NCBI GenBank assembly: GCA_023481165.1
Contig: JAMCWO010000307.1
Span: forward strand, 5,921 to 66,488
DNA: 60,568 bases
DNA from: Planctomycetota bacterium
GTDB taxonomy: Bacteria; Planctomycetota; Phycisphaerae; Sedimentisphaerales; Anaerobacaceae
Direction: 5' to 3'
Shown here: positions 1,822-60,568 of the stretch, piece by piece
Position numbering within the stretch: the first letter of the stretch is position 1
How the letters are laid out: each line of letters starts with the position of its first letter
Program-made: the position numbers and the translations under genes
Notes under the pieces: model-generated
Seen by the model: only the letters and a program-made list of their open reading frames with translations
The model's database searches: none
Told to the model about the DNA's origin: nothing

Positions 1822-1840
1822 GTGCCGGCCGGTGGCACGG

Positions 1841-1988
1841 TTTGTGCAACAGTTGAAAAGGGAAAACGGCCCGGAGCCAGAAATTCTTCAAACCCTTTCC
1901 CCACAAGGGCTTCCGTGAGTTTGCGACCTTCGTTTGACGCGGAATTTCGGCACGATTCGTGCAACAGTGCCCCAGGGTAGAGAGACGC
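1841..1988. repeat. 148-bp intergenic module, copy A
   Basis: Begins TTTGTGCAACAGTTGAAAAG and ends CGGCACGATTCGTGCAAC plus a GGTAGAG.GACGC tail. The same ordered motifs, with diverged sequence between them, recur at 56943-57091. No ORF is supported in either copy. Confidence 0.7.
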
Positions 1989-31373: not shown

Positions 31374-31523
31374 CCACGCAAGTCGTTGGCCATCAGCCTA
31401 GCTCTTAAAGAGGAAGAACCGCGCACCAGATCCTTCCCAAAACAAGCCCAATCTTCCGTTTGCAGAAGTCCATCAACTGTTTTCTAAGCTCTCCAACCGC
31501 ACAAACCGGCGGCAGGGTTCGGG

Positions 31524-56314: not shown

Positions 56315-57300
56315 TGCTCGGCCGGATCTTCGGGGAGCCCGGGAATCAGAGGCGCCCGGCGCATCTTTCGGGTGAAATCAGCGGCTTTGGGCCAAGAGGG
56401 GCGAGGGTCCCGCAAACTCCTGATGGGCGAAAAAAGGCGGACAGGCCGCCGAGGTTCTGTCGTCCCTACCGGGACTGGCTCGGTTCTTTACCAAGGTGTC
56501 CCGATCACTTCTTCGGTGCCCCGGCAGACAGTCTCCCCGCTGGCACCCGTAAAGCGATAAACGCCTCGGTTCTGGCCGGAGGCCGTGCTGGGTCTATCCC
56601 CGTTCCCTTGCGGTCTCATTGCCCCTGCCTCTCTGTCCTCTGTTTTCCGTCCTCCGCGCCCCTCGGCGGCCTCAGCGGTTGAAAAGCAGTTCCCAGTCTG
56701 CCCTCCGCCATCCGTTTTGCTAACTCGCAACAACTGAAAAAGATTTCCAGATAATTGCGCGACCCTGTTGTAAGTCGTTGTGCTGCGGTACTTTGCGTCG
56801 GTCGAAGGCAAGCCGGTTCTTTTGGTTCCGGCCGGAGGCCGGGCTGGGTTCATCCCCGTTCATCTGTGGTTTCCTTCCGTGGTTGACCTTTTCTCGGCGA
56901 TCTCTGCGGCTGCGCGCGAGGCCGGTTCTGCTTGCGGTCGCGTTTGTGCAACAGTTGAAAAGGTAAAACGCCCCCAGAGCCACAAATTTCTTACTCCTTT
57001 GGACGTAAGGAGTTGCGCCATTTTCAGGCCTCGCGCCAACACAGAATTCCGGCACGATTCGTGCAACGCGGAGCATAGGTAGAGGGACGCCGTGTCCGAG
57101 GCGGAGCCCCTCGGATCTAGGATTTATGAGTTATGATTTGGAGGCAGAAGGAAACTCATGACGACGGAAGCACAAACCCAAGCCAATCGTGCCAACGCCC
57201 AGAAGTCCACCGGTCTGGGCGTGAGATCGGATCGGGTTTCAGGGATCGGGGTCAGAGATGGGACGCTTGGCACTTCGGCCCCTGTACCTTGGGCTTCTGC
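56315..57300. other. Decayed repeat-rich region, no gene supported
   Basis: Contains two related blocks with the phrase CCGGAGGCCG.GCTGGGT (about 56568-56615 and 56814-56866), 'ctctgcggctgcg'-type filler and the 148-bp module copy B (56943-57091). ORFs overlap in all frames, with no recognisable motifs. Confidence 0.55.
56943..57091. repeat. 148-bp intergenic module, copy B
   Basis: Shares its ends (TTTGTGCAACAGTTGAAAAG and GGCACGATTCGTGCAAC) and the tail GGTAGAGGGACGC with 1841-1988. The middle is diverged. Here it leads directly into the AAACAAAGCC array. Confidence 0.7.
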
Positions 57301-57303
57301 GCC

Positions 57304-57915
57304 AAACAAAGCCAATTTGGGCCACGGCAACGCGAAGGGCAAGTGGTTTGCGAGAAAGGAGTTATGGCTGAGCGGACCTGCAACGAGCACTGGAAAAACA
57401 AAGCCAAACTTGGGCAGGACGGGGAATCTGGGGGACGGTGCCCCAGGGAGGGGCCCCATTGCGTCAAACAAAGCCAATTCACCCGGCGGCGCCGGGCTCA
57501 GTCGTACAAACAAAGCCAATTTGCCCGGACGGGGCTCGGGAGACGCCGGGCACGGTTCGTTGTACGAACAAAGCCAATCTGGGGCAGTCCGGGCAGTGGA
57601 TTCTACGGAACAGAGCCACTTCCGGCAGTCGGCCGGGGGTGTCGAGGGCGAAATGTGCCAAACAAAGCCAAACCTGGGCGAACTGGGATATCTGGGGGAT
57701 CGAGCAGGCAATTCTGCCAAACAAAGCCAATTCTTCGATTGCGGATTGCCGATTCAGGGCGGGCCCGTGGCGGGCCAAAGATGCGAAACAAACCCAATTT
57801 CGGCCGTCACGGCCGTCGAGAGGACCCATTATTCCAATATTCCATCATTCCAGTGTTCCAGTCCCCGGACGTGGGACGAGAGACAAATGCGCAAAACAAA
57901 CCCAATTTGCGGCGG
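57304..57915. repeat. AAACAAAGCCAATTTGGG interspersed array (10 units)
   Basis: Units start at 57304, 57396, 57466, 57508, 57566, 57608, 57660, 57719, 57786 and 57894. The core AAACAAAGCCAA(T/A)(T/C)TT-GG varies slightly; the last two units read AAACAAACCCAATTT. Spacers are 24-90 bp, GC-rich and mostly different, though units 2 and 7 share about 35 bp of spacer. The plus-strand frames are open and read NKAN, KQSQF or TKP repeats; the minus strand reads LALFG, WLCL and GFVC. This is not a CRISPR array, because spacing is irregular and units are degenerate. Confidence 0.8.
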
Positions 57916-57932: not shown

Positions 57933-58007
57933 TCGGGGTGAGTGGATTCGAACCACCGACCTCTTGGTCCCAAACCAAGCGCTCCGACCAAGCTGAGCTA
58001 CACCCCG
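57933..58007 (-). tRNA. tRNA-Pro (anticodon UGG)
   Basis: The minus-strand sequence starts CGGGGTGTAGCTCAGCTTGG and ends CACCCCGA, pairing over seven acceptor bases. The anticodon stem CTTGG/CCAAG encloses the loop TTTGGGA with anticodon TGG; the T arm has GGTTCGAATCC. Length is 75 nt including the discriminator A; CCA is not encoded. It directly follows the AAACAAAGCC array. The nearby defence island at 51-56 kb is consistent with tRNA genes acting as integration sites, but no attachment repeat was seen. Confidence 0.93.
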
Positions 58008-58155
58008 TAACGGCTAACGGCAACTTCCGTCATATTATATGGGCCCCGCCGGGGTTGTGCAACAGCCGGACTTCGAAATGCGCGACGGACCGGAAACATC
58101 CGGCAGGAAATGACTGTCGCGCCCCGTTTGCGAGCAGATTGCCTGCAAAAAGGGT

Positions 58156-58308: not shown

Positions 58309-59739
58309 ATGGCTGGTATGTTCTACTCGCTCAAAGAGGCGGCACAGAAGCTTGGCATCAGTGAAGACCAGGTCAAGCAATTGGCCAAGGAGGGCAAGCT
58401 CCGCGAGTTCCGCGATGGATCCAACCTGCTGTTCAAAATCGAGGAAGTCAATGCCCTGCTGGCGGAGGGCGTCGATGTGGGTGCGGGCGAGTTGGAGTTA
58501 TCGGCGGAGGAACCGGCGGCCGAGGCCCTGGGAGACACGGCCGCGCCGGCCCTGGGCGAGTCCGTGGAAGACGACATCTTCAAGCTGGATGAGGAGGCGG
58601 CACCGGCCGCAGAGGCGACGGAAGGCAGCGAAGAGTCGGACCTGGACCTGATCCCCGAATTGGAGGATTCGCAGGCCGCCGAGACCGAGCCCCAAGCGGC
58701 CGAAGAGGCCCCCGAGATCGAACTGGAGCAGCCGGCAACCCCCGAGTCCACCGCCGAAGAGGACCTTCTGCTGGCGGAGGGTCTGTCCGAGACGGCCGCC
58801 GAGGAGCCGGAACAGCCCATCGCGGAAGAGGGGGAAGGATCGACGGCGGCGGGTTCGAGCGAGGAGATTTCCCTCGCCCAGGAATCCGGGGTCCTGGCGG
58901 AAGGCAGTGACATCAGTGATATGGACACCGCCTTGACTGGGGAGGGCGTCAACGTCCTCGGCGAGACGGATACGGGCTACGATGTGACGGAGGATTCGAT
59001 GGCGGAGACGGCGGGAACGGCGGCCTCCGCTTCCGCGGAGACGGGCGCCGAAGCCTCCCTCGAAGAGATTGAAGACGATGTGAACTTGGACAGCTTCGGC
59101 AGCGGCTCCGGCCTGCTGGACCTGTCCCTCCAGGCGGACGACACCTCGCTCGGCGGCATCCTCGACGAGATCTACACCTCCGAGGGCGGCGAGGGCGAAG
59201 CCACGCCCGCCGAGGGTGCGCCGGCGGAAGCGGGTGCCGAGGCCGGCGAAGGGCCGGCGTTCGAGGACATGACGGCGGAGGCCGAGCACGGCGCGGCGGA
59301 AGAGGAGGCAGCGGTCCCCGAGGCGGTCGCCGTGATGCCGGCGGCCATGGTGCCCGCCTACGCGGAAGCCCTGCCGGATGCTCAGAGCAATATTCTCGGC
59401 ATGCTGCTGTTCCTGCCGATGCTCGCACTGCTCTACACGGCCATTGTCGTGGTGGCCGCCATGAAGAACGTCATGCCCACGATTCTTACGTCCGTGCAGG
59501 GCATGATCGCCTACATCATGGGCGGCGGGGTCGTGCTGGCACTGGTGGTCTTCGGCGGGTCCTTCGCCGCCGGCCGCGAAAAGGCCCCGAGAGCGGCGAA
59601 GCCGGCCAAGGACAAGAAAGCCAAGGCCGAGAAGCCCAAGAAGGAAAAGGCTGCGGTCGCCGAGGAATCCGCCAAGCCCACCAAAGAAAAGAAAGGCTTC
59701 AGCCTCTTCGGCAAGAAGAAGGAAAAGGGCGCCAAGTAG
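58309..59739 (+). CDS. HTH (MerR/excisionase-like) protein with acidic linker and C-terminal membrane helices
   Basis: 476 residues. Residues 5-55 form a helix-turn-helix of the MerR/excisionase type (YSLKEAAQKLGISEDQVKQL, with KLREFRDGSNLLFKIEEV). A long Glu/Ala-rich low-complexity linker (about 60-360) follows. Two membrane helices lie near 370-425 (ILGMLLFLPMLALLYTAIVV, MIAYIMGGGVVLALVVFGG). The tail is strongly basic (KDKKAKAEKPKKEKAAVAEE). Proteins of this layout are common in planctomycetes; the DNA-binding domain may have become a structural or signalling module. ATG 58309 follows GGAGAAGG. Confidence 0.8.
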   Translation: MAGMFYSLKEAAQKLGISEDQVKQLAKEGKLREFRDGSNLLFKIEEVNALLAEGVDVGAGELELSAEEPAAEALGDTAAPALGESVEDDIFKLDEEAAPAAEATEGSEESDLDLIPELEDSQAAETEPQAAEEAPEIELEQPATPESTAEEDLLLAEGLSETAAEEPEQPIAEEGEGSTAAGSSEEISLAQESGVLAEGSDISDMDTALTGEGVNVLGETDTGYDVTEDSMAETAGTAASASAETGAEASLEEIEDDVNLDSFGSGSGLLDLSLQADDTSLGGILDEIYTSEGGEGEATPAEGAPAEAGAEAGEGPAFEDMTAEAEHGAAEEEAAVPEAVAVMPAAMVPAYAEALPDAQSNILGMLLFLPMLALLYTAIVVVAAMKNVMPTILTSVQGMIAYIMGGGVVLALVVFGGSFAAGREKAPRAAKPAKDKKAKAEKPKKEKAAVAEESAKPTKEKKGFSLFGKKKEKGAK

Positions 59740-59743
59740 TACG

Positions 59744-59870
59744 GCACAATCTCGCCCCGGTAACGGAGAGCCTGGCCCGGGGTCTTGTGTGCCTTGATAA
59801 GTGCTTAGAAAAAGAGCCCGCGTGGCGATGACCCCGCGCGGGCTCTTGTGATTTACCAAGATTCGGTCAC
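59744..59870. repeat. 127-bp exact direct repeat, copy 1
   Basis: Identical to 60442-60568 over 127 bp, including the terminator at 59812-59847. The base before the repeat differs between copies. The second copy runs exactly to the end of the window. Confidence 0.9.
59812..59847. terminator. Bidirectional terminator between convergent genes
   Basis: AAGAGCCCGCG (59812-59822) pairs exactly with CGCGGGCTCTT (59837-59847). AAAA precedes it on the plus strand, giving a U-tract for the minus-strand gene; TTGTGATTT follows on the plus strand. It would end both the HTH gene and the gene at 59867. Confidence 0.7.
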
Positions 59871-60445
59871 TCCGAGTTGACGGGGACGACGCTGACCAGC
59901 CAGATCAGCTTGAAGGCGTTCACGACCTGAGGCTTGTTCAGATTGTTGCCGGTCAGGTCGATCGTCACGGCGGAGGATGTCACCGTCTCGCCGCGGAAGC
60001 GATCCACGTACCTGGCCGTGCCGGTCAGCGACGGCATGCTCGTGTCCGTGGCGAAGAAGGCGGCTTCGTCATCGGCCTTCTGGAAGACCGCGGCCTCGCT
60101 GCTCGTCGCCTCGGGCTCGTTGCACCGTACATCGAACTCGTACTGGCCCTGGCCGTTGGTCTTGCGCTGCGGGCTCTCCACCCATTTGATGTTGCCCGTG
60201 ATCTTGTCGGTCACCGTTTTGCCTTCGGCTTGGTAGGTCATCGTCAGGCCGCGGAAGTACCAGGCGCTGCGCTCGTAGTCGTACATCATCTCGCCGTTGA
60301 CGGTGGTCTCCGGGTAGGTCCGGACGGGTCCGGCCGCGAGCACCAGGCCCCGCAACGTCATGATGTCGTAGTCCTTCACGATCAGACTGACGGTCTTGCC
60401 TTTGACCTGCCGGGTGAGGGTCTGGGCCTGCTTCTTCACCTGCAC
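59867..60445 (-). CDS. Hypothetical protein, 5' end uncertain
   Basis: 192 residues from a GTG start at 60445 (VQVKKQAQTLTRQVKGKTVS). The first 20 residues are basic, then LIVKDYDIMTLRGLVLAAGP, YDYERSAWYFRGLTMTY and a C-terminal strand-rich end (FKLIWLVSVVPVNSE). No signal peptide or known family was seen. Because the 127-bp repeat covers the first four bases of this ORF and everything upstream, the true N-terminus may be missing. In-frame sequence continues 19 codons further upstream, to a stop at 60503-60505. Confidence 0.45.
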   Translation of the reverse strand: MQVKKQAQTLTRQVKGKTVSLIVKDYDIMTLRGLVLAAGPVRTYPETTVNGEMMYDYERSAWYFRGLTMTYQAEGKTVTDKITGNIKWVESPQRKTNGQGQYEFDVRCNEPEATSSEAAVFQKADDEAAFFATDTSMPSLTGTARYVDRFRGETVTSSAVTIDLTGNNLNKPQVVNAFKLIWLVSVVPVNSE

Positions 60446-60568
60446 AATCTCGCCCCGGTAACGGAGAGCCTGGCCCGGGGTCTTGTGTGCCTTGATAAGT
60501 GCTTAGAAAAAGAGCCCGCGTGGCGATGACCCCGCGCGGGCTCTTGTGATTTACCAAGATTCGGTCAC
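60442..60568. repeat. 127-bp exact direct repeat, copy 2 at the window end
   Basis: Second copy of 59744-59870. Its right end coincides with the last base of the window. The length equals a common assembler k-mer, so it may mark a contig end rather than a true duplication. Confidence 0.85.

Follow-up and report, generated by a model that had tools for sequence, protein, structure and literature searches.

In CRISPR arrays the repeats are nearly identical, every spacer is unique and of uniform length, and cas genes accompany the array, while integron attC arrays consist of sites that fold by imperfect palindromes and come with an integrase and cassette genes. The STAR elements of Staphylococcus are 14 bp direct repeats with the consensus T(G/A/T)TGTTG(G/T)GGCCC(C/A); they are intergenic, often lie 5' of genes and occur at many loci, which differ between species (PMC3532100). 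Their spacers of about 40 bp or more are locus-specific, with no exchange between loci, and a start signature, GTGGGACAGAAATGAT, is found 70-190 bp before the first repeat (PMC3532100). In the intergenic NIME arrays (dRS3 + RS), repeats of ~20 bp delimit several families of 30-160 bp segments; these arrays are 0.2-2.7 kb long and number hundreds per genome (PMC3898611). The dRS3 repeat, ATTCCC(N8)GGGAAT, ends in inverted repeats of 6 bp and serves as a target of phage integration (PMC3898611). REPINs, finally, are inverted repeat pairs that form a hairpin, with a RAYT transposase acting in trans (PMC3116915).

The window, that is the whole analysed stretch of 60,568 nucleotides, stems from a planctomycete genome of 6.05 Mb in 376 contigs and contains an array in which nine boxes reach a score of at least 12 bits with a 24-nt weight matrix (Table 1). 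The original prediction had counted ten repeat units. Indeed, a tenth copy, GGAACAGAGCCACTTCC, is degenerate yet recognisable and stays under the matrix threshold, and the motif is a direct repeat of 22-24 bp. The literal 18-mer with at most three mismatches gave six matches where 0.03 are expected, and the matrix found 352 boxes in the own-genome loci read against none in the reversed sequence, so that chance is excluded. The own-genome consensus of the box is RAWYGTGCVAAACRAASCCAATTY. The proposed partial palindrome CCAAA..TTTGG is not conserved, because the positions after CCAATT are nearly free. A lone box-like sequence, CCCAAAACAAGCCCAATC, was seen at position 31439, remote from any leader. 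We also observed a perfect direct repeat of 127 bp (59744-59870 and 60442-60568), the second copy of which ends exactly at the window end; its length suggests a k=127 assembly-graph overlap and not biology.

Table 1. Positions of the array, its leader and its neighbours in the window.
Feature	Position	Strand	Basis and remarks
Second window leader	1840..1985	+	nhmmer E 1.5e-34; one degenerate box near 2129-2147 follows
Leader, 147 bp	56941..57087	+	nhmmer E 3.6e-42 against the leader model
Remnant, first 19 NAQKSTG codons, MTTEAQTQANRANAQKSTG	57158..57214	+	tblastn, 89% identity to L041 residues 1-19
Two-box module, boxes 92 bp apart	57296..57411	+	Spacer cluster 0; own module consensus
Box 1	57296..57319	+	First A 57304; includes AAACAAAGCCAATTTGGG; 24-nt matrix
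Box 2	57388..57411	+	First A 57396; 24-nt matrix
Box 3	57458..57481	+	First A 57466; 24-nt matrix
Box 4	57500..57523	+	First A 57508; 24-nt matrix
Box 5	57558..57581	+	First A 57566; 24-nt matrix
Degenerate tenth copy	57607..57623	+	Sequence; below matrix threshold
Box 6	57652..57675	+	First A 57660; 24-nt matrix
Box 7	57711..57734	+	First A 57719; 24-nt matrix
Box 8	57778..57801	+	First A 57786; 24-nt matrix
Box 9, array end	57886..57909	+	First A 57894; 24-nt matrix
tRNA-Pro (TGG), not part of the element	57933..58007	-	ARAGORN; conserved neighbour of the downstream gene
Downstream gene, HTH_17 protein	58309..59739	+	Pfam PF12728; same strand as the array

About 40 similar arrays were found in the source genome, where array counts refer to the loci read around the listed core matches. 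The boxes within one array all share the same orientation. Genome-wide, the core AAACAAARCCAAWY has 195 exact matches and none in the reversed control, and its density of about 32 per Mb compares with 0.3 and 4.9 per Mb in the congeners G031 and G056, respectively. The suggestion that other planctomycete genomes would contain the core proved correct for the same GTDB family, in which it is present in 50 of 60 genomes (0 to 206 copies). Elsewhere in the phylum it is near background: counts in the 294 other genomes are mostly zero or similar to the reversed control, with few exceptions such as G201 from the same order. The named core matches belong to MAGs of Sedimentisphaerales, Phycisphaerae and other planctomycetes. 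Rfam gave no match to the repeat, even at E 0.5, and a literature search retrieved no description of it. Three IMG/VR contigs (L199, L200, L201), which may be viral or planctomycete DNA sorted wrongly, contain the 18-mer TGCAAAACAAAGCCAATT. In RBG_13_46_10, a palindromic stretch, CTCTACAATTGTAGAGAATGTTCTACAAATCGGACTTTTTTTGC, lies directly before the first box at all five loci (L109, L125, L146, L167, L171), and close relatives of this stretch occur in other MAGs. Furthermore, G056 harbors another dispersed element of ~85 bp with some 30 matches (query L062, reverse strand 516-602), which sometimes matches both strands at one place and is therefore palindromic.

Spacers in the source genome have a median length of 45 nt between box edges (11-97 nt, 5-95%). 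About half of the 301 spacers belong to families that are common to several arrays, with changed order, and such families occur in up to 11 arrays. Some neighbors recur as well, for instance cluster 9 followed by the 92-bp module. The spacers of the window are hence not mostly unique, as had been assumed: six of the eight belong to families present in other arrays. In line with the original prediction, two units (57396 and 57660) share spacer sequence, with 80% identity over 40 nt. Genome counts and spacer families thus bear out the idea of a dispersed planctomycete repeat with duplicating units, and the array was rightly judged not to be a CRISPR or simple tandem array, and probably also not an attC array.

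The two-box module at the start of the window array is the own-genome counterpart of a 105-bp module that is found across the family in 86 copies of 104-111 bp. The family module has no fold signal and folds no better than shuffled sequence. Its NKAN frame translates as QNKANFxxaqMNVsxxxTKdYEN and contains 59 stops in the 86 modules, versus 204 and 138 in the other two frames; correspondingly, 54 of the 86 copies are stop-free in the NKAN frame versus 8 and 21 in the others. Module lengths are mixed modulo 3 and variation does not peak at third codon positions, so in most copies the module peptide seems to be a relic.

Across the own-genome loci read, the leader model detected 46 copies, of which one is truncated by the end of its contig, and the leader consensus was built from 45 copies. 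The leader holds two direct TTCGTGCAACA-type blocks about 114 nt apart, and it carries a dyad and promoter-like blocks. It may act as a promoter. In its left half, the own box is similar to the block TTCGTGCAACA. Wherever leader and array co-occur, the leader lies 5' of the array on the same strand; most own arrays start 50-400 nt 3' of it, at a variable distance, and a few own leaders have no array. In the window, the region 1840-2150 contains a full leader with a single degenerate box, representing an array that is nearly gone or never formed. Folding of the leader RNA (z +0.3) gave no structured-RNA signal. The leader was considered as a paralogue of the module, and this was rejected since only weak register-consistent matches were found. 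A sigma-54-like sequence, CGGCACGATTCGTGCA, is present in most own leaders and the genome encodes rpoN; the congener leaders have CGACCAATTCGTGCA without the -24 GG, and a sigma-54 promoter was therefore reduced from a main claim to a possibility. Scanning the window for sigma-54 sites (GG-N10-GC, -24/-12) did no better than chance. Among the genomes read, only the source genome has the leader ahead of a box array, and in the other family genomes read outside the genus no such leader was found ahead of the first box. In G036 / CP070675 (L077, L078, L081, L084) runs of N lie directly 5' of several arrays and render the leader region unreadable there.

In the congener G031, which has almost no arrays, at least seven leader homologues occur without arrays. 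These precede a primase/helicase gene (phrog_239, 9e-35), a portal gene (PF05133 5.5e-16, phrog_64 5e-24), four HNH endonuclease genes (phrog_99) and one short ORF. The HNH genes (L225, L226, L229, L231) each have their own leader and lie on different contigs, and one of them has an AP2 domain. This arrangement gives the impression of a leader that moves together with homing-type endonucleases. Array-free leaders of the source genome also precede a primase/helicase gene (48% identity to G031) and a portal gene (75%, 117 residues).

Behind two weaker own leaders lie genes starting MTTEAQIEANRANAQKSTGPRT, which encode what we refer to as the NAQKSTG protein. Members of this family (L041:2655-3776, L116:5635-6234, L170) start with ANRxNAQKSTGPRTxEGKA. 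The protein has no match in Pfam, PHROGs, NCBIfam or PDB and was not found in the phage collection or IMG/VR; partial relatives are hypothetical proteins on plasmids of Planctomyces, Paludisphaera, Picosynechococcus, Marivivens and Sulfitobacter. According to an AlphaFold model (mean pLDDT 63), it is probably all-helical. The C-terminal tail of the longer NAQKSTG gene (L041) is made of the repeat, with four boxes all in one phase and a TKPI tail. In L170 and L194 the module lies within the NAQKSTG reading frame, and in L094 it begins 14 nt past the stop; NAQKSTG genes with terminal boxes are found in the source genome and in other family genomes. The window itself has the order leader, 19-codon NAQKSTG start and array, a placement as in L041 and L063, and tblastn recovered the start remnant with E 2e-4 in the own loci and 1e-3 in all loci. 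The NAQKSTG gene start also holds a box-like stretch of 9.6 bits, a score unreached in 2000 shuffles. Recognisable NAQKSTG coding sequence is kept at the window and two other own loci only, and 14 of 40 arrays have a start codon at the expected place. Most modules of other genomes are nowhere near a NAQKSTG gene, and hence the gene could instead have captured the repeat. By our inference, the gene tail gave rise to the arrays.

Comparison of orthologous sites revealed gain or loss of arrays. The HTH_17 gene downstream of the window array has homologues in 50 of 60 family genomes, and the pair of tRNA-Pro and HTH gene is conserved without an array in G024, G038, G036, G057 and G044; in G055, six boxes precede this HTH gene. 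The source genome has an array ahead of clpX that relatives, among them the congener G031, lack at the orthologous position, where G024 has two boxes. Likewise, the G018 array ahead of tRNA-Leu is absent at the same tRNA in G052. Static arrays across related strains, which would have argued for a true coding sequence, were thus not found; orthologous sites exist without the array. We recovered no empty site complete with its two flanks, and no transposase or recombinase is tied to the element. The proposed link to tRNA genes turned out to be incidental, as a tRNA lies next to about 3 of roughly 150 arrays. Besides the window, the 48 own array loci together contain a single tRNA, which is distant from its array, and two further tRNA-adjacent arrays occur in about 100 loci elsewhere. 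Insertion linked to tRNA genes was rejected, the tRNA frequency being about what intergenic placement gives. The tRNA-Pro has a good sigma-70-like promoter on its own strand (58007-58065; TTGCAC, 17 nt, TATAAT), which is partly conserved in G038.

With slightly better than even confidence, we regard the array as a mosaic of decayed and reshuffled gene-tail copies behind a phage-type control leader. The 147-bp leader recurs in both genomes, ahead of portal, primase/helicase and HNH genes in the congener and ahead of primase/helicase, portal-like and NAQKSTG genes in the source genome. At a handful of loci box modules end, or directly follow, NAQKSTG genes, and in the best preserved case the boxes translate in one frame as the TKPI tail. 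As the anatomy suggests, the middle of the gene would have been lost at many loci, leaving the leader and the box tail and sometimes, clearly so in the window, the gene start. The boxes would then provide short homologies at which cassettes duplicate in steps of 10, 21 and about 90 bp and are swapped between loci by recombination, and other dispersed repeats could be picked up. Leader-array units, spreading as DNA, may reach new intergenic sites, mostly 5' of genes on the same strand, via transposition or recombination. The long stop-free frames look like the leftover of a coding history and not like a current protein, at least in most arrays. The original prediction spoke of fake proteins, but these have a link to coding, since in some NAQKSTG genes the repeat is read in frame as the C-terminal tail. 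Repeat-peptide ORFs of the type it named for planctomycetes are present in relatives.

Alternatively, the arrays might still be expressed. Transcribed from the leader, they would be translated as low-complexity C-terminal or free peptides, and since cassettes of any length shuffle, selection would purge sense stops in every frame. This is unlikely in our view, and it addresses the main unexplained fact of the analysis, namely the depletion of sense stops, which plain decay does not predict. The 145 unclustered own spacers contain 67 sense stops against 118.7 +/- 8.1 expected, compared with 107 against 103.9 on the antisense strand, and in own spacers sense-strand stops are reduced to about half in all frames. 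Such a depletion would fit past or present translation in changing frames. As had been predicted, the window array has long open plus-strand frames: two are stop-free over all 606 bp between its outermost boxes, boxes included, and a single stop at +65 interrupts the third (the open frames measure 261, 334 and 167 aa on the plus and 198 aa on the minus strand). In L041, L170 and L194, in-frame boxes lie at the end of coding genes. However, stop counts relative to the frame of the downstream gene (47/52/63) reveal no frame preference, and on this ground we rejected the idea that the array is fused to the downstream protein. Own modules have stops in every frame (24/28/15), family module interiors show no depletion over all frames together (395 vs 394), and the mixed lengths and unremarkable third codon positions of the modules as well as the loss of most start codons also speak against current translation. 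No protein-level signal was found in own spacers, own modules or family modules. It is quite unlikely that the arrays form a dispersed phage-type regulon, in which the leader would drive shuffling, frame-tolerant coding cassettes, with the arrays still expressed, the sense strand selected to stay open in three frames, and new low-complexity peptides or tails arising by reshuffling at about 40 loci.

The arrays could also be kept as long 5' regions, similar to STAR elements, with protein-binding boxes that tune downstream transcription, which we rate as low as the expressed tails. The box is conserved family-wide, the leader has its dyad and promoter-like blocks, and the gene downstream has the orientation of the array in 37 of 45 loci of the source genome (p 1.5e-5) and in 53 of 77 family loci (p 0.001). 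This strand bias, however, also follows from insertion that avoids terminators or gene bodies, and near relatives have no array at orthologous genes such as clpX and the HTH gene. The downstream genes have no common theme, and a regulon of downstream genes was rejected because their functions are mixed. Very unlikely is a recombinase-driven cassette system with the boxes as site-specific crossover sites, the spacers as tiny cassettes and the leader as entry site. Direct repeats do bound interchangeable cassettes with fixed polarity behind the leader, and the resemblance between box and leader block would suit such a system, but the variable distance of the first box from the leader (50-400 nt) leaves no fixed entry site, boxes spread without a leader in other genomes, no recombinase is linked, and homologous recombination between repeats suffices. 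A miniature transposon of the REPIN/RAYT type is hardly credible and already disfavored: the module is a dispersed extragenic unit of two boxes at fixed spacing, found family-wide, and most of these genomes encode PF01797 proteins, yet the boxes are direct and not inverted, the module lacks a fold signal, and box density and Y1_Tnp density are uncorrelated (rho 0.11, p 0.38), with 19 Y1_Tnp and no box in G045 versus 2 Y1_Tnp and 157 boxes in G036.

If the arrays are indeed a mosaic of gene-tail copies, they would reveal a route in bacteria from the tail of a protein gene to a genome-wide intergenic repeat, and would link arrays of this kind with a leader employed by a relative for its phage-type genes. 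This origin would also account for the repeat-peptide ORFs that pollute the annotation of Sedimentisphaerales-type planctomycetes. Module, leader and cassette families would together offer a concrete system for the origin and spread of STAR- or NIME-like arrays.

Among the known systems, CRISPR arrays differ, as the repeats described here are degenerate and the spacers vary in length and are common to arrays. With regard to attC traits, the modules have no fold signal and the arrays no cassette genes. REPINs are similar in being paired short repeats that form a dispersed extragenic unit; here, however, the pair is direct, has no hairpin and does not correlate with a transposase. Homing-type HNH genes, or dispersed prophage genes with one control region, resemble our case in that the same leader stands before HNH, primase/helicase and portal genes, in G031 across different contigs. 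The G031 genes may represent one split prophage, a gene transfer agent or independent elements. Unlike in prophage genes with shared control, the leader also precedes box arrays, in the source genome only among those read. NIME arrays share the mosaic of ~20-bp repeats and several recurring segment families. In contrast, the box RAWYGTGCVAAACRAASCCAATTY does not fit the dRS3 pattern: it lacks an inverted repeat of that type, its orientation is fixed, and phage integration was not seen at it. Like STAR elements, the arrays combine short direct repeats with spacers of ~40 bp or longer at many intergenic loci and have a leader similar to a start signature. However, the consensus sequences of box and leader are unrelated to the STAR repeat and start signature, the cassettes are common to loci and reshuffled, the leader stands before phage-type genes too, and boxes can form the tail of a gene. 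We conclude that the layout is closest to STAR and NIME and that the arrays are of the interspersed mosaic-repeat kind, as a member of neither family.
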